Source: Anagrus nilaparvatae
Lineage: Eukaryota > Arthropoda > Insecta > Hymenoptera > Mymaridae
Direction: 5' to 3'
Length of the DNA stretch: 64,000 nt
Assembly (NCBI GenBank): GCA_022575985.1
Contig: JAKSXM010000007.1
Coordinates: 38,008,501-38,072,500, forward strand
The first letter of the stretch is position 1. Each line of letters begins with the position of its first letter. Of this stretch, positions 20,400-53,618 are shown piece after piece. A program made the position numbers and the translations under genes. The notes under the pieces are model-generated. The model saw only the letters and a list, made by a program, of their open reading frames with translations. It made no database searches and had not been told where the DNA came from.

Positions 20400-21757
20400 A
20401 TATGCAGCTTTTTTAACAAAATTTCCAGTTTTTTTCATATTGTAGATAATTAATATTTAAATATTTTCTATTTTCATATTCATCACAACTGATATTGTAG
20501 ACAATCAATATGAATTTTACTATAGAATGAAATAATCGTAATTTTTTATTGTTCATAAATAGGACAGGCGATATCCATTTCACTCTATGGTGAAATTTTT
20601 TTAGCTTTTTCATAAATAAAACAGCCAGCAATATAGATTGAAAATTTTGAATTTTTTTCATAATGTAGACAGCCAATATAAATTTTACTATAGAGTGAAA
20701 TTTTTATAATTTTTTATTTTTCAATGAATAGTACAGCCGATATCCATTTTACTCTATGGTGACATTTTTGGGATTTTCCATATATAAAACAACTAACAAG
20801 ATACATTGAAATTTTTGCTGTTTTTTTATATTTTAGACAATCAATATGAATTTTACTCTGGAGTGAAACATTTATTATTTTTTTTTTTTTCATAAATAGG
20901 ACAGAAGATGTCCATTTTACTCTATAGTGAAATTTTTTGGGTTTTTTCATATATAAAACAGTCAACAATATATATTGAAATTTTTTCAGTTTTTTCATAT
21001 TGTTGACAATTAATATGAATTTTACTTTCGAGTGAAACTTTTATAATATTTTTTATAAACTTTTATAATTTTTATAATGTTTTCATAAATAGGACAGCCG
21101 ATATCTATTATACTCTATATATGGTGAAATTTTTGAGTTTTCTCATATATAAAACAACTAACATTATAGATTGAAATTTTTGCTGTTTTTTTATATTGCA
21201 GAGAATCAATATTAATTTTACTCTAGAGTGAAATATTTATGATTTTGGTTCCTCATAGAGGACCCATTGTTTTAGGTGAAATTTTAATTTCTGATTTTTT
21301 GACATTAGCGCACGTTTTGAGACACTAAATATTTCTATATTTTTTTCATTCTTAGGACTGCCGATATCTATAATATTACATCGTGAAATTTTTTTAATTT
21401 TTCATGTACAAAATAGCCAGAAATATAGATTGAAATTTTTGTAGTTTTTTCATATTGTAAACCGCCAATAAGAATTTTACTATACAGTTAAATATTTCTA
21501 ATTTTTTTTTTCATTCTTAGGACTGCCGATATCTATATTATTACATCGTGAAATTTTTTTAATTTTTTATATACAAAATAGCCAGAAATATAGATTGAAA
21601 TTTTTGTAGTTTTTTCATATTGTAAACAGCTAATATGAATTTTACTATACAGCTAAATTAAAAAAATTTTTATTTTTTTCATTCTTAAGACTGCCGATAA
21701 CTATTTTATTTCATAGTGAAATTTTTTGAGTTTTTTCATATTGTAAACCGACAATAT
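20400..21757 (+). repeat. Satellite array, left arm of the large palindromic block
   Basis: Roughly 150-180-bp units built from GACTGCCGATATCTAT (or GACAGCCGATATCCATTT), a TATGGTGAAATTTTTTGAG block, a CATATATAAAACAGCCAACAATAT block and CAATATGAATTTTACTATAG. The array resumes at 23892 after the LINE insertion. Its GACTGCCGA words are the reverse complement of the TCGGCAGTC words at 26950-27070 and 40490-40800. Confidence 0.75.
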
Positions 21758-23891
21758 ACTTGTCCTCTGTAATTGTACTCTGGATGCTAATAAGAATTTT
21801 TGGAAGGAAATGAGGTCTCTGGGTCTCATTCCAAAAACAAATGATGCTCTTCATGGGTTTTCCCCTGATGAAATTAATTCATTTTTCTCAAACATATCCA
21901 TCTCTCCTTCCGAAGATCCTTCAATGTCACTAAACATCATTAATAATACCACTACACAAGGTTTCGTTTTCAAAGAAGTGACTACAAATGACGTTATTTT
22001 AGCTGTTTCTCACTTTACCTCTCAGGCAATGGGTGATGATAAAATACCTCACAGTGTAATTGCAAAAGCCTTACCAACTATAGCCTCTCATCTTACAAAA
22101 ATTTTTAATGTTTCACTGTCTAAGGGCATTTTTCCATCTGAGTGGAAAAAATCTAGGATTCTGGCACTTAAAAAGGTCCCCATTCCATCATCTCCTTCTG
22201 ATTTTCGCCCAATTGCCTTATTATGCTTTTTATCGAAGGTCTTGGAAAGGCTTGCTCATGACCAGGTGATTGATTTCTTAACCAAAGGTAAAGTACTAGA
22301 TATATATCAAACGGGTTTCCGTAAGCATCATAGTACTCAAACAGCATTAATTAAGCTTACGGATGACATTCGCCTAGGTAAAGAAAATAAGTTAGCCACC
22401 CTGTTATTGCAATTTGACTTTTCGAAGGCCTTCGATAATGTTTCTCCATCCAAACTTCTTCATAAACTAAAATCTATTGGCTTCTCGAGATCATCACTTC
22501 TGTGGTTCTGGTCATATCTTAGCGGTAGATCTATGTGTGTTGCATCAAAGTCATCAACATCCTCATTCCGTGAAACAAATATTGGGGTGCCCCAGGGTTC
22601 AGTCCTTGGACCACTCCTATTTTGTATTTACGTAAATGATCTTCAGGATCATCTAGGAGAATATACACTTAGAATGTTATATGCTGACGATCTACATATA
22701 TATGTACAGACACCGGCTAATAAAATTGAGCAGGGAATAGTCAAATTAACTGAATCAGCAAAAATAGTGGTATCTTGGGCACTCTCAAATGGCCTATCAT
22801 TAAACATCAAAAAGAGTCATGCCATAGTTTTTGGTTCTAGTAACACTATAACGCAATTTAAAAAGCTTGACATATCAAAGATCACTATTCATTCAAATGG
22901 AGATTGCATTCAGTTCATTGATCAGATTAATAGCTTAGGTGTCATATTAGATAATACTCTATCCTGGAAACCTCAAATAAAAGAAGTTACGAAAAAAGTA
23001 AACAGGGTACTATACGGACTCAGAATCATCAGACCATGTACTACTCAATCCCTTCGTCGTCGTTTAATTGAATCACTTGCTGTTCCTCTGCTAGACTATT
23101 GCAATGTAGTCTACTCAGACATCAGCTCTCAATTGAGTGAGCAACTGCAGAGATTATCTAATTCATGCATTAGATATATATTTGGATTAAAAAAAAAAAA
23201 GCGCATTACACCCTACAGAAAACAGCTACATTGGATGAATGTTGCTACACGAACGGACTACTTTGCACTACTCATTATGTACAGAATAGTTCGTATGAAG
23301 CAACCACCATTCCTTCTGCCACTGTTTACTATCCACAAAAATGACAGACCTTATCGTGGTCCTAGAAAAGATCTCAAAATACCTGTGGTCTTGACTAACT
23401 GGGGTATGCAATCTTTTCAAGTAAAATATGCTAAGTTTTGGAATAGCATTCCTCCATGCATACGCTACCTCCCCTCTTTTTCCCAGTTTAAAAAGAGTAT
23501 AAAAATACATCTCATAAATCTAGTCAGTAACTGATTCATTTTATTTATTTACTTATAATTATTTACTTATTTATTGACAATATGTAATTTGACATATTAT
23601 TGACTACTGAAATTTACAATCTATACTAAACTGATTTATTAATATACTTATTTTCTTTTCTCGTATTATAATTTTAAACTAACTGATTGTTGCTAGAAAT
23701 AAATAGAATTTACTACAATGTGCAATCATAAGAACTTGTATATATTAATTTATTTTATATTCTATATAATTTATATTCTATGTTTATATTAATTGTAAAT
23801 TACCAAAGAATTAACTAAGCAAATGTAAAAGAGTGTTTACTATTTTTGTAAAAAAAAGCAAAATAAATAATAATAATAATAATAATAATAA
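21758..23891 (+). mobile_element. 5'-truncated LINE with (TAA)n tail
   Basis: The insert begins within the satellite (..GACAATAT|ACTTGTCC) and ends in TAATAATAATAAT followed by ATGAATTTTACT, which continues the satellite. Matching AATAT at both joins is consistent with a short target duplication overlapping the tail. The microsatellite tail instead of poly-A and the 5' truncation are typical of I/Jockey/CR1-like LINEs. The reverse transcriptase frame is still open, so insertion is fairly recent. Confidence 0.9.
21810..23534 (+). CDS. LINE reverse transcriptase (ORF2 C-terminal part)
   Basis: 574 codons from the first ATG; the frame is open upstream to the truncation near 21761, so that ATG is internal. 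Reverse transcriptase motifs are in order and intact: the DFRPIALLCFLSKVLER entry block near residue 128, motif A FDFSKAFDNV near 203, motif B GVPQGSVLGPLLF near 258, and the catalytic YADD near 291. A C-terminal region with FWNSIPPCIR and a short tail follows. The endonuclease half is missing through 5' truncation, so the copy is not autonomous, though this part has no stop. The family looks the same as or close to the minus-strand LINE at 61375-63057, whose endonuclease and ORF1 pieces complement it; that link is inferred from style only. Confidence 0.9.
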   Translation: MRSLGLIPKTNDALHGFSPDEINSFFSNISISPSEDPSMSLNIINNTTTQGFVFKEVTTNDVILAVSHFTSQAMGDDKIPHSVIAKALPTIASHLTKIFNVSLSKGIFPSEWKKSRILALKKVPIPSSPSDFRPIALLCFLSKVLERLAHDQVIDFLTKGKVLDIYQTGFRKHHSTQTALIKLTDDIRLGKENKLATLLLQFDFSKAFDNVSPSKLLHKLKSIGFSRSSLLWFWSYLSGRSMCVASKSSTSSFRETNIGVPQGSVLGPLLFCIYVNDLQDHLGEYTLRMLYADDLHIYVQTPANKIEQGIVKLTESAKIVVSWALSNGLSLNIKKSHAIVFGSSNTITQFKKLDISKITIHSNGDCIQFIDQINSLGVILDNTLSWKPQIKEVTKKVNRVLYGLRIIRPCTTQSLRRRLIESLAVPLLDYCNVVYSDISSQLSEQLQRLSNSCIRYIFGLKKKKRITPYRKQLHWMNVATRTDYFALLIMYRIVRMKQPPFLLPLFTIHKNDRPYRGPRKDLKIPVVLTNWGMQSFQVKYAKFWNSIPPCIRYLPSFSQFKKSIKIHLINLVSN

Positions 23892-24419: not shown

Positions 24420-27400
24420 GCAATATTAGCATTAAATTATTAGTATTAAATTTAGAAAAATATACCAATTTAAATGTTTTCGAATATTGTCCGGTTTTAT
24501 AGAAATCTTGAAATCTCAAATATTTTTATGCAATGATGGCATTGAAATTTTTTTATTTACTTTAGCAGAAACTATACGCTATTCTAAAATTTTTTTTAAT
24601 AGTCATAAATTTTTATGCAATGATTGTATTCAAATATTTTTGTAATTTCAAATATTTTTATGCAATGATAGCATTAAAATTTTTTTTTTTAATTTTAGCT
24701 GAAACTGTACAACATTTTTAATTTTTTTCTAATAGTCTCCTGCTTTATAGAAAAGTTGTAATTTTAAATATTTTTATGCAATGAGAGCATTGAAATTTTT
24801 TTATTGACTTTAGCAGAAATTATACGCCATTCTAAATTTTTTTTTAATAGTCATACATTTTTATGCAATGATTGTATTGAAATATTTTTGTAATCTCAAA
24901 AATTTTTATGCAATGATAGTATTGAAATATTTTTATTGACTTTAGCAGAAATTATACGCCATTCTAAATTTTTTTTAATAGTCTCCTGTTTTATACAAAA
25001 TTTGTAATTATAGATATTTTTATGCAATGATAGCATTGAAATTTTTTTATTTACTTTGGCAGAAACTATACGCTATTCTAAAATTTTTTTTAATAGTCAT
25101 ACATTTTTATGCAATGATTGTATTCAAATATTTTTGTAATTTCAAATATTTTTATGCAATGATAGCATTAAAATTTTTTTTTTTAATTTTAGCTGAAACT
25201 GTACAACATTTAAAATTTTTTTCTAATAGTCTCCTGCTTTATAGAAAAGTTGTAATTTTAAATTTTTTTATTCAATGATAGCATTGAAATTTTTTTATTG
25301 ACTTTAGCTGAAACTGTACATCATTTAAAATTTTTTTCTAGTAGTATCTTGTTTTATTTAAAAGTTGTAATTTTAAATATTTTTATGCAATGAGAGCATT
25401 GAAATTTTTTTATTGACTTTAGCAGAAAGTATATTTAATTTAAAATTTTTTTATAATAGTGTCTTGTTTTATATAAAAATTGAATTTTAAAAATTTTTTA
25501 TATTGAAATTTTTTTATTGACTTTAGCAGAAATTATACGCCATTCTAAATTTTTTTTTAATAGTCATACATTTTTATTCAATGATTGTATTGAAATATTT
25601 TTGTAATCTCAAAAATTTTTATGCAATGATAGTATTGAAATATTTTTATTGACTTAAGCAGAAACTATACTGCCGTACAGGAGTAAAAAGGCAATATCTC
25701 ACTTTTAACTCATTTCGAGATATTTGAAGAAAAACGTTTCGGTTAATTTTGAAAGGTTTATATACAATTTAAAAAAAATTTATATGTTTCTAAGGTAATT
25801 AAGACATGCTCTTTTCATTGGTGAAAAAATTTTTCCAAAATTTCCACTCCTTATATGAAAAACAAGAGATATGCAAAAATAGCAGCGCCAAATCGGCTTA
25901 TAATACAGGAGAAGAAAAGCAATATCGAGATATGCGTTTTATATAAAGAGATATTGCTTTTCTTCTCCTGTATTGAAATATTTTTTTCCATGCGCGCTGC
26001 TCTGCCGTACAGGAGAAGAAAAGCAATATCTCGAGATATGCATTTATTTCATGTATTTTTTTTTTATTCCATGTTAAATTTTATCAAATACATGAAACCT
26101 TCGAGATATGCAGTGTTAACTTTTTTGTTATCAGTGATATCAAAATAATTTTTGCACCACTGGATAGATTTTTTTTTCACGATTATGCACATATAAAAAT
26201 CTCATTTTTCATAAAATCTCGAGATATTGCCTTTTTATTCCTGTACGGCAGTATACGCCATTATAAATTTTTTTTTAATAGTCTCCTTTTTTATAGAAAA
26301 GTTGGAATTTCAAATATTTTTATGCAATGATTGCATTGAAATATTTTTGTAATTTCAAATATTTTTATGCAATGATAGCATTGAAATTTTTTTATTGACT
26401 TTAGCAGAAATTATACGCCATTCTAAATTTTTTTTTAATAGTCTCCTGTTTTATAGAAAAGTTGAAATTTCAAATATTTTTATGCAATGATAGCATTTAA
26501 ATTTTTTTTTTGACTTTAGCAGAAATTCTACGCTATTCTAAATTATTTTAAATAGTCTTCTGTTTTATACAAAATTTATAATTATAAATATTTTTATGCA
26601 ATGTTAGCATTTAAATTTTTTTTTTGATTTTAGCTGAAACTGTACATCATTTAAAATTTTTTTCTAATAGTATCCTGTTTTATTTAAAAGTTGTAATTTT
26701 AAATATTTTTATGCAATGAGAGCATTGAAATTTTTTTATTGACTTTAGCAGAAACTATACGCCATTATAAATTTTTTTCTAATAGTCTCCTTTTTTATAG
26801 AAAAGTTAGGATTTCAAATTTTTTTATGCAATGATTACATTGAAATATTTTTGTAATTTCAAATATTTTTATGCAATGATAGCATTTAAATTTTTCTTTT
26901 TCTTTAGCAGAAATTATACGCCATTCTAAATTTTTTTCTAATAATCATTTGTATGTCGGCAGTCCTAGTTATGAAAAAATAAATTCAAAAAATTATTTTA
27001 GATGTCCGTAGTTCTAGTTATGAAAAAATATTTTAAAAAATAATTTGGATGTCGGCAGTCCTAGTTATGAGAATATAAAAAAAATTTTTGGGTTAAAGTA
27101 TTGGGTTAAATGAACTTTTGAATTCAATTATTTTAGTTTCTCTACGTCTCTCTTTGAAATAATTTTATTGATGTTAGCAGAAAATATATCTCATTCTGCA
27201 TTTTTTTCTAATAGTGTCCTGTTTTATGCAAAAGTTGGAATTTCAAATATTTTTATGCAATGATTGCATTGAAATATTTTTATTGACTTTAGCAAAAACT
27301 ATACGTCATTCTACATTTTTTTTAATAGTGTCCTGTTTTATAGAACAGTTGGGATTTCAAATATTTTTATGCAATGATTGCATTGAAATATTATTATTGA

Positions 27401-27560
27401 CTTTAGCAGAAACTATACGTCATTTTACATTTTTTTATAATAGTGTCATGCTTTATACAAATGCTGGAATTTCAAATATTTTTATTCACTTTGACAGAAA
27501 CTATACGTGATTTTAAATTTTTTTGTATAAAGCTCTGTTATATATAAAAATTGGGATTTC
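24420..27560 (+). repeat. Tandem array, about 117-bp unit
   Basis: Units repeat TTTATGCAATGATAGCATTG, a TTTTTTATTGACTTTAGCAG block, AAACTATACGCCATTCTAAA, a TTTTTTTAATAGTCTCCTG block and TATAGAAAAGTTGTAATTTC, with shortened variants. It is interrupted by a TIR element (25670-26251) and by three units of TCGGCAGTCCTAGTTATGA at 26950-27070. Frames seen in it are repetition artefacts. Confidence 0.8.
25670..26251. mobile_element. TIR element with internal hairpins, inserted in the 117-bp satellite
   Basis: Terminal inverted repeats of about 30 bases start CTGCCGTACAGGAGTAAAAA and end with the near-perfect complement. The satellite flank reads ..AACTATA / TATACGCC.., against AACTATACGCC in intact units, implying a TATA (or shorter, AT) duplication. 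Inside, AGGAGAAGAAAAGCAATATC occurs in both orientations around 25906-26030, giving nested hairpins. No transposase. Confidence 0.8.
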
Positions 27561-27688
27561 AAATATTTTTATGCAATGTTAATGTTGAAATATATTTTTA
27601 AAAAATAATATATGAAAATATTCAACAAATTTCATCGAATAAGGAATTTGATATCGATATTATAAAAAAATATTTCAATGTTAACATT

Positions 27689-28450
27689 TGTTACGTATCC
27701 TGAGGTTTTATCCAAGGGATACGTAAATATAAATAATTATGAATATATGAAATATAAGTTTATCCTGGGGATATTGACTGCCCCAGGTATTTTATTATAG
27801 TTGGTATGGTGATTATTTGGTTGGTTTATAGTTGATGTATTTGTAGATGAGTTCGGGTTCGATCTAAGCTGGATGAACCTAACCTGAGGCTAAGTTCTTA
27901 ATTACAGAAGGAATTGTCACTTACACAATAATAACTGATAACTGATTTGATATATAACTTTAACTTTATTGATTATAAGTAAATATAATAAAACTGTCTA
28001 AGTCTTTAAGTCAAACGAATTATAAAAGATACTTAATAACGGGAGTTAGTACTCTAATTAATGATGGTTATGATTCTAAAGAATACAATTTGGGCGCCTG
28101 AAGGGCAATATATAATCTAAAATGAATCTGCCCATATTGCGAGATTTTGGGGGAAACGTCCAATACAAAAAAGCGTCGGTCTCGTCACGTCCAATTAGCG
28201 AAGGCGTCCATAACTATTACTAAGAATCGCGAGGTGGGATTTATGCATTTTATAACGCCTATAAATCCCTACTAATTTATGTCACAGTTGACTTTTGTCC
28301 CGCGCTATTGTGCTAGGTCAGCATCAGCGGAAATGCATCTGCGGGTTCCTATATCGTCTGGGAACGTTAATATGAATATCGGATGTAGGTTTAATATTTA
28401 TATATATATCGGATGTTAGGCATATCAATTTTGACGTACAATACGTAACA
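27689..28450 (-). repeat. 3' LTR
   Basis: 762 bp, beginning TGTTACGTAT and ending ATACGTAACA, so the LTR ends are themselves a 10-bp inverted repeat. By eye it differs from the other LTR by one small indel (three bases shorter near 27795) and about four substitutions. Confidence 0.95.
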
Positions 28451-30350: not shown

Positions 30351-30614
30351 GTGTGTGTTATATTTAAGTTGTTAAAGTGTTTTAATTATAAATTATGGAA
30401 AAACAGGTAAGATTTTGTTATTATTTTATTTTTATCAATTAGTTTCAGTTCAATTTATTGTTTTAATATAAAAATTTATAATTATTTTGTGTCGGAGCGA
30501 TAGTTAGGTTATGTTTTTGTTATGTTGAATTTTATTTGTGTTAGTGAGTAAGGTATATAGGGTGTTGGTTGGAAAAGAAAACTACAGAGGGAACAATAAA
30601 ATATATTTATTTCT

Positions 30615-31570
30615 AGGGATAGCGGGGAAAATGAATTTTTGTGAATTAGCGGTACGGGAGGGTTTTATAAATTTTCTGAAGTTAGCGGGACGGAAGGTTT
30701 TTTATAAATTTGTAATGTTAGCGGTACGGGAGGCTTTTTATAATTTTGTAAAGTTAGCGGTACGGGAGGCTTTTTATGATTTTGTAAAGTTAGCGGTACG
30801 GGAGGCTTTTTATAATTTTGTAAAGTTAGCGGTACGGAAGGGTTTTTATAATTTTGTAAAGTTAGCGGTACGGGAGGCTTTTTATAATTTTGTAAAGTTA
30901 GCGGTACGGGAGGCTTTTATAAATTTTCTGGAGTTAGCGGGACGGAAGGTTTTTTTATAAATTTATGATGTTAGCGGTACGGGAGGTTTTTTATAATTTT
31001 GTAAAGTTAGCGGTACGGGAGGCTTTTATAAATTTTCTGGAGTTAGCGGGACGGAAGGTTTTTTATAAATTTGTAATGTTAGCGGTACGGGAGGCTTTTT
31101 ATAATTTTGTAAAGTTAGCGGTACGGGAGGCTTTTATAATTTTGTAAAGTTAGCGGTACGGGAGGCTTTTATAATTTTGTAAAGTTAGCGGTACGGAAGG
31201 GTTTTTATAATTTTGTAAAGTTAGCGGTACGGGAGGCTTTTTATAATTTTGTAAAGTTAGCGGTACGGGAGGCTTTTATAAATTTTCTGGAGTTAGCGGG
31301 ACGGAAGGTTTTTTATAAATTTGTAATGTTAGCGGTACGGGAGGCTTTTTATAATTTTGTAAAGTTAGCGGTACGGGAGGCTTTTATAATTTTGTAAAGT
31401 TAGCGGTACGGGAGGCTTTTATAATTTTGTAAAGTTAGCGGTACGGAAGGGTTTTTATAATTTTGTAAAGTTAGCGGTACGGGAGGGTTTTTATAATTTT
31501 GTAAAGTTAGCGGTACGGGAGGCTTTTTATAATTTTGTAAAGTTAGCGGTACGGGAGGATTTTTATTTTA
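30615..31570 (+). repeat. 36-bp minisatellite inside the LTR element, about 26 units
   Basis: The unit is GTTAGCGGTACGGGAGGCTT followed by TTTATAATTTTGTAAA (36 bp), with 35- and 37-base variants. A variant unit (CTGGAGTTAGCGGGACGGAAGG) recurs near 30926, 31036 and 31286, giving higher-order structure. GC content is well above the flanks. Because 36 divides by three, a 12-residue repeat (KLAVREAFYNFV) reads through part of the + strand, and a proline-rich one (LQNYKKPPVPLT) on the minus strand. I treat both as artefacts unless transcribed. Confidence 0.9.
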
Positions 31571-31760
31571 TGAATTTTTTTGAAATTGGGGTTCGGATTA
31601 GATATTTAATTTATGTATTTTTTCTAATTTGGGGTTCAGATTGGATTTTTAATTTATTCATTTTTTTGAAATTGGGGTTCGGATTGGATATTTAATTTAT
31701 GTATTTTTTTGAATTTGGGGTTCGGATTGGATTTTTAATTTATGTATTTTTTTGAATTCG
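31570..31760 (+). repeat. About 53-bp tandem repeat, 4 copies
   Basis: Units of TTGGGGTTCGGATTGGAT followed by a TTTAATTTATGTATTTTTTT block, directly after the 36-bp array. Confidence 0.8.
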
Positions 31761-33026
31761 GGGTATATTATAAGTAAATATTTGTAATTTTGAGATGTAA
31801 AGTAAAAAGTATAAACATAGAGCTTATATGATTTTACGTATTGGGGGAAATATACATATTATATGTAGAGTTTTTATAATTTTGAGATATAATGAATAGC
31901 CATATAATGAACACGTGAGTATGAAAAAAAAATATAATTAATATTTTTATTATTCGTTATGTGTTGAGTATGGTTTCCCTCCTTTCTCCTCTTTTTCTTT
32001 ATTTTTTTTTGTACGTAAATATTTATTTTTAAATTTATTTATTTATAAAAATTTTGTATTGAGAAAGTCAAATGGAGCAAGAAAAACAGAGATATGAAAT
32101 TGTTAAGACAATAAAAAATTAAAAAAAAATTAAAATAAAAAATTTTTAAACAATAGTTTTCGTAATATTTATATACACAGGTGTATGCCTGATACTAGAA
32201 TGACAAAGAGGTTGTTTGAAAAAATTTTGCAAAACTTTATGATATTTACAAATCGTAGGAGAAAAAGAGAGGTGAATTTAATAAAATTTGATTAATTTGT
32301 TATAGAAAAAAAACTTTCCTGCAATTTTCATATACCCAAGTTGAGTGTCGATGAGATATACGCAAATATGTGGCTTGTCTCAGATTAAGGAACGCTATAC
32401 AGCGTTGGTGAGTTAGTTAATAACAGCACCAGTTTAGAAAAGCTCTGTTTTCTTTTGATGTCGGCTTCAGGAAACTAGGATAGAGTTAATTGGTGTTACA
32501 ATTAGTCGGTTATACAGCTTCTCGTCTGGTTTATAAGCTCTCAGAAGCATTTTTTTTTTTCATACATTCTGGATTGCCAATTTTTTTGCATATATATTAT
32601 TATTTAATAATATTTCCATTAATCATTCTTAGAGTACAAGCGATTTTCATAGTTGAGAACATTGCTCGTCTATGAGAATTATGTATTAATTTATACAGTA
32701 ATGCACATTTAATTTTGCGTTTCTTTGAAGTTGAAGTGAGATCTTGGTTGGGCAAAAAAAAATGAATGTTGCAGTAGTATTGTAATAAAAATTGTATGTG
32801 TTAATAAGTTGGTTATATCCTCTTTCACTCCATGTGATTTAGTATAATTTATAAAGTGCAATTATGCAGTCTTTAAGATCAGCTGTTTTGATAATATTAT
32901 GTCATTTCAGTCTCAAGGGCAAAACCATATACAAACAAAGATTATAAAAAATTTTATCTCTATAATTATTATGAATGTGATTCACGTCTCTGGTTGTCCG
33001 GCAAAATTTCTCTCTCTCAATTTTTC

Positions 33027-34788: not shown

Positions 34789-37206
34789 CTATAAAATCTT
34801 TGGCCAAGGTGGGGCCCTAGGTGGGCGTACTGCAATAATAGAACTGGGATAGTAGAACTCGGGCGGTTTAGGTAACCAATCAATTGTACTATGACTGATA
34901 AGCCCTGTCCAATTTTTCATATTAAATTTTATTAAGTCCAGTGCTAAGTCCCATTTATTGGAAACAAAATTTGCAACAGATATGTGATACAAAAATACAA
35001 ACAAAATTCTGAAAAATTTCTGAAAATCTGATTTATCTTGATAGGTTTGCGAATCGTCTAGTGATGATTTTGGAACCAGTTTTTGTTTTTGGATGATGTT
35101 TTTCAGCGTATATTTGGTTTCAGTCTGTTGTACATCATCTATTTTGGATTTGAATTCTTCAGGTGGCAGTGGTTTAGGTTCTACTGTCGCTTCTTCCAAT
35201 ATATACGTGGTTTTGATTTGAAGTACATCACATGTAAGGTTTGTTTCGTTTTGTTGTACCAAGATGCCAACCTTTTTAGAGAGAGGTGTTTCAGTTATTT
35301 TGAGTTCAGCGATTTCTATTATTTCTTCTTGAAGTGAAATTTCATTTGTATTAGCATAATTTATATTTTTTTCTTTTTGAATGGCATGGAATAAAGACAT
35401 GGAGGTTTCGTTCAAAGGTGATATAAATGTATTGATTTGTTTAATTTTAGTAGGATCTGCGTTTAACGCTTTTAAAGAGAGCACCTGAAAAGCTTTATCC
35501 CACGTTTTTGGGATATATAATTTGTTAGAGTTAAAAATTCGTATTAAAATATTCATTTTATATTCTTTGGCAAAAATGTGTACGCAATTGCTATTTTCCC
35601 ATTTTTTTTTCTTGTTTATGATGTGAAAGATCCCGTCAGGATTTTTGCAATGTTTTAGGGGTTTACTTATTTTTAAATTATTGTTATATTCATTGATACT
35701 CATATTATTATTTAATAAAATTCTAAGACTGAAAAATAAACAGTCACTATAGTTACTTACATCTAGATACCTAAAAAATTGTTCGTAACTTTCACTACAT
35801 TTATCTATTTTGTCATAGCGATTAAATACGTTTGTATTGATTATAATTTGTTTATAAATATCTTTTTTGCTTTTGTTAGGTGCAAATATCAAGGCAATAT
35901 TAGTTTTATTATTTTCATTGTCAACTTTCATGATTTCAGTGTCGTTATTTTCTAATTGTTCAATAATTTTATCTATACTTAAGCTTTTTTTGTTCTCAGA
36001 ATTTATACAGATTCTTTTTTTGTGAATTATGGTTTCTGGATCTTTGTCTGTAAATTTTACGTCGAGTGATGCTTCAAATAAAATTTTTCCTTTGATGGAG
36101 TCAACAGTAGCTGGGTAATTTTCTGTAATCGTTTCCTTATTTGTTTCGGGTTGTGATTTGCTAATTGTTGCTTTACATTTTTTTGAATCAATTTCGATGT
36201 TCTTATCGGAAATAGAGTTTGTTAATGGACTGAATTTATTAATTTTATTATTTAATATATTTTTCGTTATTATTTTGTTATTATAATCGGATAAATTTTT
36301 ATTTCTTGTATTTCTTTTTCTTTTTGCCATAAATAAAGGAGATTTTGAATAATTTTCTAGAGGGGGACTATCATTTTCAGAATCAGATTTGTTTTTAAGA
36401 TTAAATGTAACTATTCTTTGTATAGGATTAGGTTGTGATTTTAGTGAAATAATTTCATTAGTTTTTAAAGGTTTTTGAGTTAATTTTGATTTTTCCAAGT
36501 TTAAAATAGGGATTTTATTATTTATTAAAAAGGGGTGGGAAATTTTTGGTATAGGGGTTTCTCTTGATTTTTCGATAGTTGAGCTTAAATTTTTATCTGT
36601 TTCAGGGATTGAAGTAATTTCTGTTATTTTTAAGGGTTCAAGTGTTTGTTTTACTGTTTTAGGGTTTAAAAAAATTTTTGGTTCTAAATTTTTAAAGTTA
36701 GTTGAAAAAGGAAAAGAATCTTCTAGTTTAAAAGTTAATTTTGATTTCTCAATGGTTAAACTAGGGGTTTTATTAATTGCTGGAAAATCAAGAATTTCTT
36801 TAGGTTTTTCAATACTTAAGTCTAAATCAGATTCGGTCTGAGGGATTATTTTTAATTTTTCAGAATTTGTAGAGGATTTTATTTTTGGCTTAAGAATTGA
36901 TTTCGGTTTTTCAAAACTAAAATTTATTTCTGGTTCAGGGGTTAAATTTTCATTATTTGAAGTAAAGTCTTTTTCTAGGGTAGTATTTGAAAAAGGACTA
37001 AAATTTTCTGTATTATTTCGGGTTTCAAAAGGTATTGTGTTTGAAACGTTTACTTTATCATTATTAAGGTTTAAAATTGAAGGTAATGTTCTATTATAAA
37101 AGGTTTTCTGAATTGCATTTTTATAAAAAGTGTCAGAATCATAACTTAATTTTGGCCCAAACTCACTCGAGAATGGGCAGGTAACTAGTTTAAATGTTTT
37201 TCTGAT
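34789..37206 (-). CDS. ORF2 of the LTR element, reached by -1 frameshift; unknown, weak OTU-like segment
   Basis: Open frame from just after a stop at 37207-37209 to the stop at 34789. It overlaps the Gag end and lies one base back from it. From the TTTAAAC site it has about 800 codons, with no ATG until about codon 288, so it is best explained as a Gag fusion. The first half is disordered, with repeated (I/F/L)EK(S/P)K motifs (IEKSKLTFKLE, IEKPKEIL, FEKPKSILKPK, IEKSRETP, LEKSKLTQ). Then a basic stretch (MAKRKRNTRNK) follows. A more ordered part reads YSDCLFFSLRILL, then KKWENSNCVHIFAKEYKMNI (about 35565-35745) and SLFHAIQ (about 35385). The Cys-Leu-Phe, Trp and late His spacing loosely recalls OTU cysteine proteases, but the usual Asp-Gly before Cys is missing. 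The tail is proline-rich. No aspartic protease, RT or integrase motif. Confidence 0.7.
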   Translation of the reverse strand: MRKTFKLVTCPFSSEFGPKLSYDSDTFYKNAIQKTFYNRTLPSILNLNNDKVNVSNTIPFETRNNTENFSPFSNTTLEKDFTSNNENLTPEPEINFSFEKPKSILKPKIKSSTNSEKLKIIPQTESDLDLSIEKPKEILDFPAINKTPSLTIEKSKLTFKLEDSFPFSTNFKNLEPKIFLNPKTVKQTLEPLKITEITSIPETDKNLSSTIEKSRETPIPKISHPFLINNKIPILNLEKSKLTQKPLKTNEIISLKSQPNPIQRIVTFNLKNKSDSENDSPPLENYSKSPLFMAKRKRNTRNKNLSDYNNKIITKNILNNKINKFSPLTNSISDKNIEIDSKKCKATISKSQPETNKETITENYPATVDSIKGKILFEASLDVKFTDKDPETIIHKKRICINSENKKSLSIDKIIEQLENNDTEIMKVDNENNKTNIALIFAPNKSKKDIYKQIIINTNVFNRYDKIDKCSESYEQFFRYLDVSNYSDCLFFSLRILLNNNMSINEYNNNLKISKPLKHCKNPDGIFHIINKKKKWENSNCVHIFAKEYKMNILIRIFNSNKLYIPKTWDKAFQVLSLKALNADPTKIKQINTFISPLNETSMSLFHAIQKEKNINYANTNEISLQEEIIEIAELKITETPLSKKVGILVQQNETNLTCDVLQIKTTYILEEATVEPKPLPPEEFKSKIDDVQQTETKYTLKNIIQKQKLVPKSSLDDSQTYQDKSDFQKFFRILFVFLYHISVANFVSNKWDLALDLIKFNMKNWTGLISHSTIDWLPKPPEFYYPSSIIAVRPPRAPPWPKIL
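37155..37194 (-). promoter_or_regulatory. -1 ribosomal frameshift signal between Gag and ORF2
   Basis: In the Gag frame the minus strand reads CAT TTA AAC TAG: a canonical X XXY YYZ heptamer, TTTAAAC (37188-37194), directly before the Gag stop. A 9-base spacer follows. Then GCCCATTCTC-GAGT-GAGTTTGGGC (37155-37178) folds into a 10-position stem with two U-U mismatches and a GAGU loop. Shifting back one base opens ORF2. All three components are visible in the sequence; function is inferred. Confidence 0.85.
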
Positions 37207-38989
37207 TTATTTTCAGCAGTTTGGAAATTTTTTGCATTGTTAGAAGGGTTATTGGGTTGTTGAATTGGATTATTCATATTAGGAGGAAAATTCTGATTAT
37301 TTCCATTTTGGAAGTAATTTGGAGCAACATTTTGGCTTTGGTCATAATTTTGGCCTTGGTTAGAATAATTATGATTTTGGGGAGGGAAAGTTTGGTTTTC
37401 CATCATATTTTGATTTGAATAATTTTGATAAAAGTTATTAGGATAAGCATTATTTGAAAAATTTTCTCTGTTAAAATTACGATTTCTATTATTACCGCGA
37501 AATTGACCGCGATTATTGTTATAGTTTTGGGGATTATTTGGGTTAAAATTTTGATTATTAGGGTCTCCATTAAAATTTTGATATGAATTAAAATTTTGTT
37601 GATTATTTGGGTATTGATTAAAATTTTGATTAAATGGGTTATTTTTATAGTTTCGACCTCCTGTATTATAACTCTGATTATTATAATTATAACGATTATA
37701 ATTGTTTCCTCTATTCGGTTGCCACCAAGGTGGTGGATAATTTGGGGGTAATTTTCAAAAACAGGAGTTAAAGTTGTAATTGCAATATCGGGTTCTTGGG
37801 TTTCGGTAGGATGTTTAATTTTTCCTTGCTCAACAGATTTAAATAAATCTTTACATTGAGATATATCGTGACTATTACTTTTACAAAAAATACATTGCTT
37901 TTTTGAAGTTTCAGCGGCAGTAGCGCGTATACCTGCTGCATTACCCATTTCATTATGTAATCTTTGTATTTCTAAAATTTGATTCATTAAATTGAATATT
38001 TCAGAAGTTGAGGCTGTGGTGACACTAGATTTGTCGTCCGTCGCAAAGTTGTTTGGTTCGGCTGGAGTAACTGGTGCGTGTTTTAATGTACAGAATTCAT
38101 GTCTTTGTACCGAGCGACGTCTACCTTCAAGGTTAACTGCAATATTAGCAGCTTCTCGCAAAGTTTTTGGTTGTTTTGAAGCTACTCTATATTCCGGAGG
38201 ATTTCTCAATCCAAAAAGAAAGCATTCAAGGGCTTCAATACTAGTTCGCTTTTTCCATTGTTCTTTTTCGTTTGCGGTTAAGCTAACTGATGAATCATAA
38301 ATTGCATGTAAAGCTTGTTCTAAAGTTTGTACGCGTAGCGCGTAATCGGCGACTGGTTCGCCAGGGTTTTGTTCGGCTTGTCTCATATCTAATTTAATAG
38401 TATCTGCGTCAGTGATACCTCCAAAACTTAATTTTAAATCTTGTAAAAAATTTTCTAAACTGGTGTAATTAGGAGCAATTCCTGCGTAAGCGTCGTATGC
38501 TCGGCCTTTAAGGCGACGAGGGATTGAATTTAACAAAAATTGTTCACATCCTGTTCCATATGTTTTAACAATGTCTTTCAAAACTTTGGAAAAAGCTTGT
38601 AGGGTTTGTGGTTGACCAGAAAAATCGGGTATATTTGCAATAGCAGTTATAAGTGGGACGGTATTATTTAATCTATGTCTATTATTATTGTTGTTTGGTG
38701 GGTTTAGTACTGCATTATTACGATTTTGATCATTATTTTCAATATCGTTCAGAATTTCGTTTGTTATTTCTAAATTTAGTGCTCTTTCAGCGTTAATTAT
38801 ATTTGTAATTTGTTCGCGTTGTCGCAGCATTTCTAAATTGAGGCGTTCAAGTTCTTGGGCTAAATTGGCTACATCTATATTATTGGGCGGGTTAGTTTGA
38901 GGGCCGTCCATGGTTCGGTTTACTTCACTATTAATTGATTCAGTATCAGAAAATGTATCTCGCGGTTGTCGCCAAGAATTATTTGGCAT
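37185..38989 (-). CDS. Gag of the LTR element (one 1-base frameshift)
   Basis: Structural capsid-nucleocapsid protein. It starts at an ATG at 38989 (MPNNSWRQPRDTF). A coiled-coil-like Leu/Glu stretch (about residues 40-90) is followed by a capsid-like domain (IPDFSGQPQTLQAFSKVLKD through FLFGLRNPPEYR and a REAANIAVNLE block), the usual layout of Ty3/gypsy Gag. One CCHC knuckle, CIFCKSNSHDISQC, sits near 37860. At a run of five C (37744-37748) the frame must change by one base for the coding sense to continue; after it comes an extreme N/Q/Y-rich tail (NYNRYNYNNQSYN type) ending at TAG 37185-37187. Whether the C-run change is a mutation, a sequencing error or real slippage cannot be told here. 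Total length is about 600 residues. Confidence 0.85.
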
Positions 38990-39655: not shown

Positions 39656-39670
39656 CCTTTTAGGGAGCCA
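39656..39670 (-). other. Candidate primer-binding site
   Basis: Minus strand TGGCTCCCTAAAAGG begins 5 bases inside the 5' LTR. The leading TGG would pair with a tRNA CCA end; I cannot name the tRNA. Confidence 0.6.
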
Positions 39671-39675
39671 CTTTA

Positions 39676-40440
39676 TGTTACGTATCCTGAGGTTTTATCC
39701 AAGGGATACGTAAATATAAATAATTATGAATATATGAAATATAAGTTTATCCTGGGGATATTGACTGCCCCAGGTATTTTATATAATAAGTTGGTATGGT
39801 TATTATTTGGTTGGTTTATAGTTGATGTATTTGTAGATGAGTTCGGGTTCGATCTAAGCTGGATGAACCTAACCTGAGGCTAAGTTCTTAATTACAGAAG
39901 GAATTGTCACTTACACAATAATAACTGATAACTGATTTGATATATAACTTTCACTTTATTGATTATAAGTAAATATAATAAAACTGTCTAAGTCTTTAAG
40001 TCAAACGAATTATAAAAGATACTTAATAACGGGAGTTAGTACTCTAATTAATGATGGTTATGATTCTAAAGAATACAATTTGGGCGCCTGAAGGGCAATA
40101 TATAATCTAAAATGAATCTGCCCATATTGCGAGATTTTGGGGGAAACGTGAAATACAAAAAAGCGTCGGTCTCGTCACGTCCAATTAGCGAAGGCGTCCA
40201 TAACTATTACTAAGAATCGCGAGGTGGGATTTATGCATTTTATAACGCCTATAAATCCCTACTAATTTATGTCACAGTTGACTTTTGTCCCGCGCTATTG
40301 TGCTAGGTCAGCATCAGCGGAAATGCATCTGCGGGTTCCTATATCGTCTGGGAACGTTAATATGAATATCGGATGTAGGTTTAATATTTATATATATATC
40401 GGATGTTAGGCATATCAATTTTGACGTACAATACGTAACA
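39676..40440 (-). repeat. 5' LTR
   Basis: 765 bp, TGTTACGTAT...ATACGTAACA, almost identical to the 3' LTR and followed on the + strand by the CATT target duplication. Confidence 0.95.
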
Positions 40441-41110
40441 CATTACATAAAAATATTTGAAGTCTAAAAAATAAAAAAAAAATAATTTGGATGTCGACAG
40501 TCCCAGTAATGAGAAAATAAGAAAAAAATTTTTTCAGATGTCGTCAGTCCTAGTTATGAAAAAATTAAAAAAAAAAATTTTTTAGATGTCGGCAGTCCTA
40601 GTTATGAAAAAATAAAAAAAAAAGTTTTTTAGATGTCGGCAGTCCTAGTTATAAAAAAATTAAAAAAAAAATTTTTTTAGATGTCGGCAGTCCTAGTTAT
40701 GAGAAAATAAAAAAAAAAAAAAATTTTTAGATGTCGACAGTCCTAGTTATGAGAAAATAAAAAAAAAATTTTTTAGAAGTCGGCAGTCCTAGTTATGAGA
40801 AAATAAAAAAAAAAATAAAATGGTTCTAAATAGTTTTTTTGCTATTTCTCTTCAATGAATGCATTAAATAAAAAACTAAACAAAGTTCCTTTAGAAAATC
40901 TTTTACTAAATAGAATGCAACTGGGTTTTTACATTTTGATACAATCCATTTTAAGTTATCAAGTGGCGAAAATGACAACTTTTTGAGTTTTTAAATTTAA
41001 ACTACTTAGCTTCAAACCGTTGTAACTCCAAACTGAGAACTCAAATTAAAAAAAATAAAGAGATCAAATCGATAGCATTTTTTCCAAGGAATAATATGCA
41101 CTAAAGCTTA
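40441..41110 (+). repeat. Satellite and inverted-repeat segment, right arm of the large palindromic block
   Basis: About seven units of roughly 47 bp with GATGTCGGCAGTCCTAGTTA and A/T-rich spacers (40490-40810), then about 40825-41105, an inverted diverged copy of 23996-24275. Together they mirror the left side of the block. Confidence 0.75.
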
Positions 41111-43483: not shown

Positions 43484-44378
43484 CTAGTCTATGTGTCTTT
43501 TGTACCGTTTTCCATTGTACTCGTACTCATAATGGAGATCCCCCAGTTTTGTGACGATTTTACCTTGAACCCATTTGTCCATGCGGACATTACCAGACAT
43601 GAAATAGACAGTCTGTAGAGCTTCGAATGCTCTAAAAGTTGGTTCAAATGAGGCACTTTGTTTTTGTACCGTTTTGGTGTATAAGTCATTTGGTTGTACA
43701 AGGTTGAGACGTGCCCGAATATTACGACCCAAGAACAGTTGCGTGGGACTTTGTTCTGTCGTCGAGTGTGGCGCTTTACTATAATGCTGTAGGTACATGT
43801 TTAGCTTGCTATTGATATCGCTAGATGAGCACGACAAAGTCATTAATGCATCCTTGACGGACCCCACACTTCTTTCAGCTTGCCCATTTGTAGATGGGTG
43901 GTACGGTGCTGTTAGCCTATGATATTTGACTCCTGAAAATTTGAGAAAATCTTTAAATTCTTCAGAAACAAACTGTCTTCGATTGTCTGAGACTACTGTT
44001 AATGGAACTCCGTACCTTGAAAATAATTTGTCGAGTATCTCGATCGTAGCCTTGGAAATTGTTGACTATGTGGATACGTTCCCATGGAGCCTTTGAATAC
44101 TCCCAGTGATGAGTTCTAAACTTCAGTGGCGCATTTGCGTTTTTAGCACAATTTGTACAAGATCTGGCTGCGGCTTCGATATCATTGTCTATACCTAACC
44201 AGTAAACAAAAGAATGGGCAACACCTTTCATTTTTGCGATGCCAAGATGTGCTGCATGGAGATCATCTAAGACTTGCTTGCAAAATAGTTTGGGTATAAC
44301 TACTCTGAGTTCAAATAGGAGACAACCCGCAGATAGTGTGTATTTAGCCTCTGGTGACTTGCAACCATGACGTTGCAA
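43484..44378 (-). pseudogene. Gypsy integrase remnant with core deletion
   Basis: The HHCC zinc-binding domain is clear (DDLHAAHLGIAKMKG...SCTNCAKN). The core begins WERIHI and then jumps (about 44060-44035) to sequence near the end of the core (VPLTVVSDNRRQ, HRLTAPYHPSTNGQAERS), so much of the catalytic core is deleted. The C-terminal part (43484-43867) with TTEQSPTQLFLGRNIRARL and a chromatin-contact-like tail (YEYNGKRYKRHID) is open to its stop. Confidence 0.85.
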
Positions 44379-49866: not shown

Positions 49867-50652
49867 TCAAAAAAATTAATAATTTAAATTATTTATTTAG
49901 AAAAATATTGCAATACTTTTTTAGCCGTTTTATTTAAATCAAGGTATTTTTTCCCGAGAAATCCATGTTTTTCATTATCTTTTCAAAATATTATGAACAG
50001 TTTTTATTTGCTAAAATTAGAAAATGAAACTTTGAAAAATGATTAATTATTCTCATAAATTTTTGCTATGTTAATAAATTCACTAATTTAAAATATATAC
50101 TTTCATAATTCTCTGATTTCAATTAGAAGATTTTTGACGAATGGACTTTTTAACAAATAAATTAGCACAGCACGGTCGGATTCTTCATTTTCTGGTGTTC
50201 TGAGGCATTGTAGGCTAAAACTTATTCAAAAATAAAATTTTCAAATATGTTTTTTTTGCATTTAGTCGGATTTATTACTAAATTTATTACTGAAAAAAAT
50301 TTATTACTAAAAAGTAATTAACGTATCTGAAAATTTCCCAAAAAATTCAAATCGGTCTAATTTAAGCACTTTTGCACCTAGAGAACTAAAAAATTGGGAG
50401 GAATCATGTTTCATATATACAAAAACATCTGCAAAATTTTTTGTCAATCGGTGAAGGTCATTCTGCAAGAAATGTACCTTCTAGCTGGATATACTCATAT
50501 ATTATATCTAACATTTAGTTATATGTTTCTTGCATATTGGTTGTGCACAAATCACTTATAAATTATTCTCAAAGAAAAATTTTAAGTTTAAGAATATATT
50601 AATTATTTTTATTAACAATATGAAAATTTTTTACAAAACTAATAACTAGACA
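49867..50652. other. Intron end before exon B, no gene seen
   Basis: AT-rich sequence leading to the exon B acceptor; no element recognised. Confidence 0.5.
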
Positions 50653-50662
50653 TTTTTTTCAG

Positions 50663-51648
50663 TACTTCCAGTAGTAAGCAGTATATTGTGAATACTGTTA
50701 CTGAAGCTAAATATCCAAATGAAAATGTTTCTTTGAATGTTATCAATTCTAATTCTGATCGAGAACGATTTAATCAAGAAACACAAGAGAAAACCAATTT
50801 AGAAAATTCTTTTCTTGCACCTCATAAATATCAAATATCAATACCACCTCAGGTAGCAGCAACTTCTGATAATAATTTGTTTCATTCAACGCTAGGGCCC
50901 TCGATTACTTCAATAAAATCTAATGAACATTTTAATACTCAAGAAAATTATCATACTCAGTTTGATCTTCAAGACAAATTAGAATCATCTCTAGAAACTG
51001 ACCATGATCCAATACCAGATTTTACACCAATTATACCACTTCCAGAAGAAGTGCCAATAAATACAGGGGAAGAAGAAGAAACTATTTTATACAGTGGCAG
51101 AGCTAAATTATTTCGTTTCGTTGATAGGGAATGGAAAGAACGTGGTATTGGTAATGTTAAACTTTTAAGAAATGTTAATGGTAAAATCAGGTTATTAATG
51201 CGACGTGAGCAAATTTTAAAAATTTGTGCAAATCATTTTTTACGAAAAGATATGCAATTATCACCAATGCAAAATAATGATAAAGCATATGTTTGGGTTG
51301 CTCATGATTTTGCAGATGAAGAAATCAAATTAGAAAAATTATGTATTAAATTTAAAACTTCAGAAGAAGCTAACATTTTCAAAGAACATTTTGATGAAGC
51401 TATTAAAAACTTGACCTCTGAAGTATATAATGAAACTCAAAAAGCTATTGACAAAAAATATCAATTCAATGACACAGTTAAAAACGAAATTAAACGTCAA
51501 TCAATAAATAAATCATTACAAGAGATAGACACAAATGCAAATAAAACTGAAAACACGTTAAGGAGTAACATTCACACAGATTATTATCCAACAAATTGTC
51601 ATTCGGAAAACAGTTTTAGTAAAAAAGATTTAAAATTACAAAGCATAG
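50663..51648 (+). CDS. Nup358: Nup358/RanBP2 nucleoporin, internal exon B with Ran-binding domain
   Basis: Exon of 986 bases with acceptor TTTTTTTCAG before 50663 and donor GTAAGA at 51649. The first base completes the codon split at the end of exon A (AC|T, Thr), so the two exons join in frame. After an acidic, S/N/Q-rich linker there is a clear RanBD1 domain at roughly 51070-51410. It opens with a run of Glu (GEEEETILYSGRAKLFRF), followed by EWKERGIGNVKLL, the RLLMRREQILKICANH core and the FADEE...KFKTSEEANIFKEHF end. These are hallmarks of RanBP1/RanBP2 domains, which bind Ran-GTP. The tail is lysine- and asparagine-rich and ends in phase 1 at ..QSIG. Frame extension past 51648 reads into intron. 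Other exons must lie outside the window or be too diverged to see. Confidence 0.9.
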
Positions 51649-53618
51649 GTAAGAATTTTTCAAATAAATATTTACATTATACATTAATAAATAATACTTT
51701 CAAAATAAGATTTAAGTAAATTTAGTAAATTCAGTTTTCATGCCCCTTTAATATTCTTTTTTCAAAACAAATTCAGAATCGTAAATTTGGATTTTCGTCT
51801 CCAATATGTAAATAGCATATTACTAGCTTGTATCCTTGTATTCACAAATAATAATAAACTTTATTGCGATGCAATGATTGAAAACTATCGGTACTTTTTA
51901 TCTGGTTTCAATTAATGTAATTGTTTTTAATTACTGTTATGTTATGTATAGGTTTTTAACCGAAAGCAATTTTAATATTCTTCTGTAAATTCTGGTAAAT
52001 TCTTAAATTTTTTGTGTACTACTTTTGTCTTTTTCTTGGAACTAAGTTTAATGTGTGTATTTTGTTGTTGTACGCACTGCCACGAAATAGTTCATTAAAT
52101 TAGTGCATAATAATCATATAATAATAATAGGCTTGTAATGTACGTTTGTATTTTAGTACTCAGGCAGACCTGATTTTCTTATAATATAGGAGCCGTATGT
52201 AATGTTTTTGACTACCTTATTTATATGCGTTTCGCATCTGAGGTTAGAGTCCACTGTGATATCTAAGAGTTTACTCCTCTTAAGCCTATTTAATATGCTA
52301 TTAAAATAGAACATATTTGGTGTACCCTAGGAATCGGAAAATCAAGAGGGGGAGGGTAAAATGTATCCGATTTAAGGGAAAGGGGCAAAAGGGACTCATA
52401 GTAATTTCGATTTAGAGACTTACTTAACAGGTTATATAGCGTTGCTATAATACCAGGAAGAGACGATTTTCATAAGTGCGCGAAAGATTATTTATGCGCG
52501 ATAATCTTACATAAAATATGATTGACTCTAATAGGCAGTAGCGACACACACGCAGGACACACACAGATACTGACCGACCGCAAGAGCAAGGAATGAAGAG
52601 AGAGTGGTGAAGAGAACGGAAGGAAAGAAAAGAGATTGTTGTTACGTGGACCTCGATACTAGAAAAAGCACATTTTTATAAAATGAATAATTTCGATAAT
52701 TAAATTAATTGATTAAGTATTGAAAAAGTATTGATAATAAATAATATTGCCGCGATAAGGATTAATAATCAATTGCAAGTTATATTAACTGGTCAATCGA
52801 ATATTGATTACAAGATTCTATTAGCGGACAAGACTTGTTCACAAGACTCTTTTTTTTTGTATAGTAACTGCTATATTTTTGTATTAGAATTTCAATTAAT
52901 AATCTTGGTCAATCCGAGAGGGCGGAAATAGCCACATTATAGTTATTGCTTAAGATTTATGTATTTTTATGCAGTTAGCTGTAGTAAGCGTATTCCGTGC
53001 GATAAGATTGTGCTTACACAAACCGGTCATAAGTTTTTTTAAGTTAAATTTTGAATTCCTTAGATTATGTGGAATTATCTATGGAAAAAGTGATACATTC
53101 TGATTTTACTATGTTAAGTAGCAGTTTATCTTAACTAAGACAATTGTATATTTACACTATTTTAAGATTTGCAACGCTTTCGATCTCCTTGCCTTTCAAG
53201 CTACAACCTCGAGTACAACGCCACAACTAATGTGTCGGGTGGGAAGAATAAGAAGTGACCTTTTTTTTCGGTGCACTGTGTATAGTTAAAGTCCGCTGGT
53301 GACATAGGGCACAGTTTTGCGACTAAGCTACTATACTTTTGAAAATATCAATTTTTACTATTTTTGCAAACAACAAAAATTATGAAAGTTTGGTTGAAAA
53401 TTAAAATATTCTAAAAATATGATAATATTTTACGGTCGCAATTGGTATTACTTGAATTGCATTAATTTATACGTACTTAGTTGAATTTTTATTATAAAGT
53501 TCACCGTATAAAACGTAAGTATGAAACCCGATCCTAAAATTCTGGACCAGATCTGGAATCCAGATCTAATCTAGCTGTGGCAATGGTCGTTGTGCGGACT
53601 TGGCCCAGACTCGTATAT
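51649..53618. other. Nup358 intron after exon B, mostly unassigned
   Basis: Starts GTAAGAATT. Apart from a LINE scrap at 52160, a moderately GC-richer, purine-rich patch at about 52440-52660 (CAAGGAATGAAGAGAGAG) and one at 53540-53610 (two CCAGATCT words), no feature is recognised. The patch at 52440-52930 could be part of a retroelement LTR, but I see no matching partner. Confidence 0.45.
52160..52300 (-). pseudogene. LINE reverse transcriptase scrap (thumb region)
   Basis: Minus strand reads LDITVDSNLRCETHINKVVK then NITYGSYIIRKSG, the LGVxIDxxLxxxxHI..V.KK pattern after the catalytic core of I/Jockey-type LINEs. Short and isolated. Confidence 0.5.

Follow-up and report, generated by a model that had tools for sequence, protein, structure and literature searches.

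Our analysis of 64,000 nucleotides (nt) of DNA from Anagrus nilaparvatae (hereafter the window, whose positions serve as coordinates throughout) indicates that the 12.75-kb long terminal repeat (LTR) element on its minus strand, at 40440-27689, is very probably a non-autonomous Ty3/gypsy-type element that is mobilised in trans and has kept gag together with the -1 frameshift cassette of a gag-pol junction. The -1 frame that this cassette opens, open reading frame 2 (ORF2), appears on sequence comparison to be a mosaic of a Pol leader, an intervening stretch, an OTU-derived stretch and a tail, and the element would make Gag and a minor Gag-ORF2 fusion. A preliminary description of the window had seen in it a gag-pol-type -1 signal within an LTR element, and this is supported; in a sister family of the same genome the same cassette is followed by a protease and a reverse transcriptase (RT). 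The features to which we refer, all on the minus strand, are listed here; P0004 is a database homolog of the window Gag, and the first sister type is a set of RT-bearing relatives, both described below.

39676-40440, minus strand: 5' LTR, TGTTACG...CGTAACA, with aatg on its outer side
37745-38989, minus strand: Gag, ATG-started frame; broken near 37740-37760 in the window copy
37185-37754, minus strand: Asn/Gln-rich Gag C-terminus, in the frame ending HLN-TAG; 43% identical to P0004 over 115 columns
37188-37194, minus strand: slippery heptamer TTTAAAC, in phase; kept in close copies and diverged junctions
37185-37187, minus strand: Gag stop TAG; TAG in 38 of 39 other copies, CAG in copy L030
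37179-37187, minus strand: 9-nt spacer
37155-37178, minus strand: candidate stimulatory hairpin; stem of 10 positions, of which two are U-U mismatches, and loop GAGU
34789-37206, minus strand: ORF2, the whole -1 frame, 805 codons and a stop
36687-37184, minus strand: ORF2 part 1, putative Pol leader, as in the RT-bearing first sister type
35362-35928 (limits approximate), minus strand: ORF2 part 2, apparently OTU-protease-derived stretch, residues about 427-614
34852-35421, minus strand: ORF2 part 3, tail, 49-54% identical to frames of a 347-codon type elsewhere in the genome
28451-34788, minus strand: long region lacking any 150-codon frame; it contains tandem arrays and, just before the 3' LTR, a purine tract
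27689-28450, minus strand: 3' LTR, with aatg directly after it

At the junction the minus strand reads CAT TTA AAC TAG, in which TTTAAAC keeps the X XXY YYZ phase. The preliminary description had placed such a heptamer at the stop of the Gag frame, followed by a 9-nt spacer, a 24-nt hairpin of the form listed above and a -1 frame open for about 800 codons, and reading the sequence confirms the heptamer at 37194-37188, the spacer, the hairpin at 37178-37155 and the frame of 805 codons at 37206-34789. The junction thereby has an in-phase heptamer, a spacer within the 5-9 nt range, a stable plain hairpin downstream and an overlapping -1 ORF, as is expected of a -1 site. Folded alone, the hairpin reaches -12.5 kcal/mol (z -4.7, equalled by 0 of 200 shuffles); it is less striking in context, with z -2.55 for 60 nt (4/200) and z -2.12 for 95 nt (8/200). 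Could heptamer and hairpin have arisen by chance in DNA so rich in A and T? In the overlap of about 21 nt chance alone would supply 0.18 in-phase heptamers of canonical type, so that such a heptamer is not rare in this element. TTTAAAC itself, however, is expected there in phase 0.003 times, the hairpin ranks first for stability among the 12,728 24-nt windows of the element, and both are kept in all seven diverged junctions that we read, those of loci L056 and L057 included despite their different leader. We therefore reject chance, whose probability we regard as negligible. The absence of an early ATG, which had also been claimed, is real, the first ATG of the -1 frame being codon 293 (codon 289 from the heptamer). 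As evidence it is weak, because base composition predicts few ATG: over 292 codons, 1.15 are expected from the composition of that stretch (P(0)=0.32) and 2.67 from that of the whole ORF (P(0)=0.07). As strong evidence for recoding we have accordingly rejected it.

The Gag side of the junction is damaged in the window copy. The preliminary description had the end of the Gag frame right, but the frame that ends at TAG is open for 189 codons only; since the ATG-started frame (from 38989) is a different one, Gag must be broken here. A protein-database search with Gag found five relatives, among them P0004, which is 57% identical to the window Gag over 68% of the query, runs continuously across the region of the break and ends in the same C-terminal residues, HLN. 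Against Pfam the window Gag gave PNMA and Ty3_capsid matches, all below cutoff, a CX2C-type zinc-knuckle-like stretch can be seen by eye near the end of the ATG-started frame, and the viral_contigs database yielded no Gag relative.

Searching the genome with P0004, we obtained 88 matches, with 72 of 1,259 candidates scored, and from these we read seven diverged junctions, picked to span the levels of Gag identity. T TTA AAC and the hairpin are present in every one of the seven, as is a stop, which is TAA in L059 and TAG in the other six. When they are aligned with the window, 9 of 43 columns vary across the eight junctions, while the heptamer, eight stem pairs and the loop are all invariant; the probability of such invariance would be 2e-5 if columns were independent, which closely related rows and the coding of the region prevent them from being. 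L058 and L059 add a G-C pair at the base of the stem, and L056 and L057 have an A facing a U of the internal loop. Past the hairpin the leader is unlike that of the window in L056 and L057, which are of P0004 type, homologous to it in L058-L061, and window-like in L062 over the 29 codons read.

What follows the same cassette in these relatives? At C218 an open frame encodes the start of an RT 0.8 kb past the Gag end; in PDB this piece matches one 'Enzymatic polyprotein' and two chains of protease/RT/RNase H, all three at E 0.003-0.005, and Pfam returned no match for the fragment. A genome search with the RT piece (150 matches, 150 of 835 candidates scored) was crossed with the Gag loci. In the first sister type, whose Gag aligns to residue 609 at 56-57% identity, each of the seven Gag loci has RT in the -1 frame, exactly 1,086 nt past the Gag end; two of these loci, L060 and L061, are among the junctions read. 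Four of the seven have long RT open frames, of 2,046 codons at C175, C95 and C317 and of 1,662 at C147. Between leader and RT an aspartic protease is indicated (L064, at C95; PF00077 (RVP), E 8.6e-4, 20.0 bits, just under the 20.7 cutoff). In the P0004 type, RT lies 792 nt past the Gag end, by match coordinates in the -1 frame at C79 and C95. Protease then RT is the Pol order in these sisters, in which we infer the positions of RNase H and integrase.

ORF2 resembles this arrangement at its start and then departs from it. Its leader is 65% identical to that of L064 in protein and 85% in DNA over 311 nt, and the match stops at about 36687, before the protease; residues of about 176-426 form the stretch between the leader and the OTU-derived part. 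With the C-terminal 376 residues of ORF2 we obtained 109 genome matches. One, C215:282183, is 58% identical over query residues 1-133 and lies 2.2 kb past a P0004-type RT, out of phase with it. At the corresponding place at C218, the stretch L065 is open and in phase with the RT 742 codons upstream, inside (by its reported length) the 1,727-codon open frame reported for that RT; RNase H and integrase presumably fill the 742 codons in between. L065 matches OTU in Pfam (PF02338, E 3.8e-5, 24.6 bits, cutoff 23.3), and window ORF2 is 49% identical to it over the OTU stretch. Among the 34 close copies in which the surroundings could be found, 33 have the OTU nucleophile-Cys motif and none a HYTPL-type His motif, both of which we take to hold OTU catalytic residues. 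Part 2 itself comes out negative on both tests of an OTU protease, having no Pfam match and an incomplete pair of Cys and His.

The sister cassette with RT behind it, the shared leader and the OTU stretch indicate that the recoding signal was inherited from gag-pol and that ORF2, which holds neither protease nor RT, is at least partly derived from Pol. The preliminary description had stated that the frameshift product has no protease, RT or integrase. This is borne out: window ORF2 has no Pfam match, to these domains, to RNase H or to any other, and searches of protein databases and, by sequence, of PDB returned nothing. The sister protease and RT pieces likewise found nothing convincing in the window element, with one stray RT-piece match at E 0.044. 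A pol hidden in the long 3' region was considered and rejected, there being no 150-codon frame in the window copy and no match to the sister protease or RT beyond that stray one.

The tail has relatives of another kind. Fifteen genome matches are to the tail only (49-54% identity, query residues 166/167 to 317 or 356), 11 of them in open frames of exactly 347 codons and none, by eye, near a typed RT match. The sites of this repeat family are C147:2726769, C196:17070534, C95:15782363 and 12 more places. The tail also has a weak ABC_C match (E 0.057, under cutoff) and a candidate membrane segment at 35016-34960 (hydropathy 1.63), and a single-sequence structure model of the ORF2 C-terminus was uninformative (mean pLDDT 31.7).

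The family to which the element belongs is mobile and multi-copy, with at least 40 copies at 98-99% identity. The preliminary description had called for a comparison of other copies, and we fetched 39 from the same genome, namely those that scored highest among 112 candidate matches to the junction DNA; they are 97-99% alike. All 39 have the heptamer, and 37 of them have the hairpin without any change. Frames could be scored in 38, the exception being L030, where CAG replaces the stop; the values for L009 and L010 are the same throughout, and the two may represent a single duplicated segment. The Gag frame is open for 613-615 codons up to TAG in 21 of 38 copies, ORF2 for at least 798 codons in 15, and both are open in 11. 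The first ATG of the -1 frame falls at the same codon in 29 copies, later in 5 and earlier in 4. This bears on the possibility that ORF2 is translated from a separate RNA, spliced or with an internal start, as an env gene is, with the heptamer a leftover. The position of the first ATG at codon 293, ahead of the OTU-derived part, would suit such a start, but it shifts in the nine copies just mentioned, and heptamer, phase and hairpin are also kept in the ORF2-bearing families L058, L059 and L062; we judge this explanation very unlikely. Downstream, eight of eight other copies read contain a region homologous to the long one, in which the tandem arrays vary, and extend to a 3' LTR. At E 0.01 the sister protease, RT and OTU pieces had no match in the 3' part of any of these eight; the longest frame of these copies is 469 codons, in L055 and beyond the LTR. 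A domesticated host gene of the PNMA/PEG10 kind was also considered and is rejected in view of the 40 or more close copies, the LTRs of the window and the 3' LTR in all eight others.

More broadly, the Gag loci fall into two classes, for which 32 of 150 RT rows and 68 of 109 ORF2 rows were typed. Window-like ORF2 follows at 52 of the 72 Gag loci and RT at 15; five have neither and none has both, a zero that holds within the reach of the search, since the C218 OTU homolog (49%) is absent from that search's matches. Open frames of 800-816 codons occur in 30 of the 68 typed ORF2 rows, and frames of 790 codons occur at C79 and C161 at 79% identity. Sequences of ORF2 that are 92-94% alike stand behind Gags 73-78% like P0004 and behind window-type Gags 57-61% like P0004, and such near-identical ORF2 on different Gags points to an exchange of gag or ORF2 between families.

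Is ORF2 maintained? Changes were counted on a tree built from 33 of 40 sequences, the other 7 being excluded because they lacked a piece or were poorly covered. The internal branches of ORF2 carry 140 changes, namely 98 missense, 41 silent and 1 nonsense; neutrality would give a missense to silent ratio (N/S) of about 3.2 and 6.2% nonsense, or about 8.7 nonsense changes against the one seen. For Gag the corresponding counts are 27, 44 and 0, with a neutral N/S of 3.6. Stops make up 0 of the 101 ORF2 variants common to at least three copies, compared with 19 of 315 single-copy variants. Between families, where the comparison covers the leader only, the ratio of nonsynonymous to synonymous rates (dN/dS) is 0.52-0.79 in nine pairs. 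Nonsense depletion combined with weak missense constraint gives the picture of an ORF2 whose open frame seems to be preserved, with loose constraint on its individual residues.

One could suppose instead that ORF2 is open merely because the family has spread recently, that signal and ORF2 are now useless and that Gag alone matters. The 97-99% likeness of the copies and the strong constraint on Gag (N/S 27/44 on internal branches), hardly matched in ORF2, are what such a passive relic would leave. The depletion of nonsense changes, the long ORF2 frames in families at 79-80% identity and the unchanged cassette between families all speak against it, and we consider it unlikely. Another alternative is that recoding now serves mainly a new protein unrelated to Pol, a captured chimera that binds ubiquitinated proteins or membranes or hijacks the particles of an autonomous relative. 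The long ORF2 of many copies, including the frames of 800-816 and 790 codons, the scarcity of nonsense changes, the occurrence of ORF2 on differing Gags as if swapped as a module, the relatives of the tail in 347-codon frames and the Cys motif in 33 of 34 copies would all fit this, but missense constraint is weak and the HYTPL-type His motif is missing from all 34 copies. Moreover, since leader and OTU part are Pol-related, capture is needed for the tail only. The proposal of the preliminary description that recoding is kept for a different protein thus falls as a first choice, leader and OTU part being related to Pol; it is alive in part, as the mosaic product may have a task of its own and the tail may come from elsewhere, and we regard a mainly new protein as a minority possibility, doubtful though to be taken seriously. 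A bolder form would be a pol-less class of LTR elements whose frameshift is under selection and brings into the particles of an autonomous relative a Gag fusion with a degenerate OTU part and possibly a membrane anchor, as a hijack or interference module spread between Gag lineages; this we think rather doubtful.

How, then, might an inherited cassette work in a non-autonomous, trans-mobilised element? We infer slipping, a Gag-ORF2 fusion and copying in trans. Most ribosomes would stop at TAG and yield Gag, while a minority, slipping on U UUA AAC ahead of the hairpin, would yield Gag-ORF2. The element RNA and Gag would then assemble with proteins of a relative that carries RT, namely its Gag and Gag-Pol, and the enzymes of that relative would copy and insert the element in trans. 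Elements with a truncated ORF2 would spread less well, by which ORF2 would stay open; the most likely reason would be that Gag-ORF2 enters particles and has kept a part in assembly, tethering or binding. The element probably depends on complete relatives for its movement.

Several observations weigh against this account. Among the eight junctions there are no compensatory stem changes, stem changes being simply absent, and the conservation in the 39 close copies is partly selected for because the copies were chosen as the best junction matches. At C218 and C196, the P0004-type loci whose junctions were read, RT is out of -1 phase with Gag, and the assignment to Ty3/gypsy, made by sequence likeness, depends on weak matches. 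A PDB search with L065 gave no OTU match, the best hit (E 0.18) being unrelated. Leader and OTU part have their matches in two different sisters (the OTU part in the P0004 type only) and the tail in a third repeat, so that a single deletion from a complete pol is unsupported, and deletion and chimera are indistinguishable. As for selection, stops make up 4 of the 31 ORF2 variants found in exactly two copies, and a non-coding frame of the ORF2 C part (offset 1) has about as few internal stops, 2 of 99. Missense constraint on ORF2 is weak (98/41 against 3.2 neutral) and in the N part nil (27/7 against 3.4 neutral), and leader dN/dS is 1.17 for L058-L059 and, for the other leader, 0.95 for L056-L057.

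The TGTTACG...CGTAACA LTRs of the element are 99.1% identical over 765 aligned columns, with 4 mismatches and 3 gaps, and the 4-bp aatg at both outer flanks is a short target duplication. Of the hallmarks of the Ty3/gypsy lineage, TG...CA LTR ends, a short target duplication and a purine tract are present; protease and RT are absent, which by the criterion of autonomy makes the element non-autonomous. A TGG-starting stretch, tggctccctaaaagg, at about 39656-39675, a few bases past the 5' LTR, may be the primer-binding site. Arrays of repeats of about 36 nt and about 43 nt lie within the element at 30591-31764, and their length differs in other copies. Tandem arrays occur at both ends as well (26222-27593 and 40429-40859, with spacings of about 115 nt and 47-49 nt), and a 98-nt unit of the right flanking array is also matched on the left at 26987-27084. 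Elsewhere in the window there are a separate RT frame outside the element (595 codons, 21747-23534, plus strand; RVT_1, E 1.9e-32) and, 3 kb upstream of the element, an integrase-core fragment (rve_3, E 4.2e-6; 43484-44065, minus strand), which is a remnant of another retroelement or transposon. A frame with a RanBP1 domain lies at 50646-51719 (plus strand, E 1.7e-41) and a DUF6570 match at 16420-16926 (minus strand, E 1.3e-7).

More generally, the family offers a natural experiment on the purpose of a retroelement frameshift signal after the loss of the polymerase, since families of a single genome share the cassette, and behind it lies Pol in some of them and, it appears, a mosaic with Pol-derived parts in other families. 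The genome also presents an OTU domain and an RT in one open frame of an LTR element. With a pol-less ORF on more than one Gag lineage, the question of parasite and helper, of who copies whom and with which Gag, becomes directly addressable. Among the titles listed in our literature searches, none describes an LTR element that lacks pol yet retains the -1 cassette, a statement about those titles and nothing further.

Among known systems, the closest in design are Ty3/gypsy LTR elements with -1 gag-pol frameshifting. In a survey of 2003, 28 of the 51 animal elements had pol in the -1 frame, and many had a classical heptamer; U UUA AAC ranks among the most slippery heptamers known (PMC5009743). 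The window family resembles such elements in Gag, in the heptamer and in a -1 frame on the pol side, and has sisters of this kind in the same genome; it differs in that its -1 frame has no protease or RT. In the host genes PNMA3 and PNMA5 a -1 product without a Pol domain and resembling no known protein persists (PMC5009743). These genes and PEG10 are like the window family in having Gag followed by -1 frameshifting, and the window Gag has a weak PNMA match below cutoff; they are, however, immobile host genes with pseudoknot stimulators, whereas the window family has LTRs, many recent copies and a plain hairpin. HeT-A needs a frameshift for Gag (PMC5009743). It too has a Gag without an RT of its own; unlike the window element, it is a non-LTR element and its frameshift lies inside gag. 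BARE-2 and maize Bs1 are Gag-encoding non-autonomous elements without their own RT. To our knowledge, neither HeT-A nor BARE-2 nor Bs1 retains a gag-pol -1 cassette that opens into a non-Pol ORF. Ginger1 transposases, that of the pea aphid included, have a C-terminal OTU domain past a gypsy-like integrase (PMC2836005); Ginger1 elements are DNA transposons, whereas here OTU and RT share one open frame of an LTR element, with the OTU part degenerate in the window family. Finally, LTR retrotransposons of bdelloid rotifers carry extra ORFs, with modular exchange of ORFs among retroelements (PMC5408684). Those extra ORFs are ORF3s beside an intact pol, whereas the ORF2 of the window family occupies the place of pol itself.

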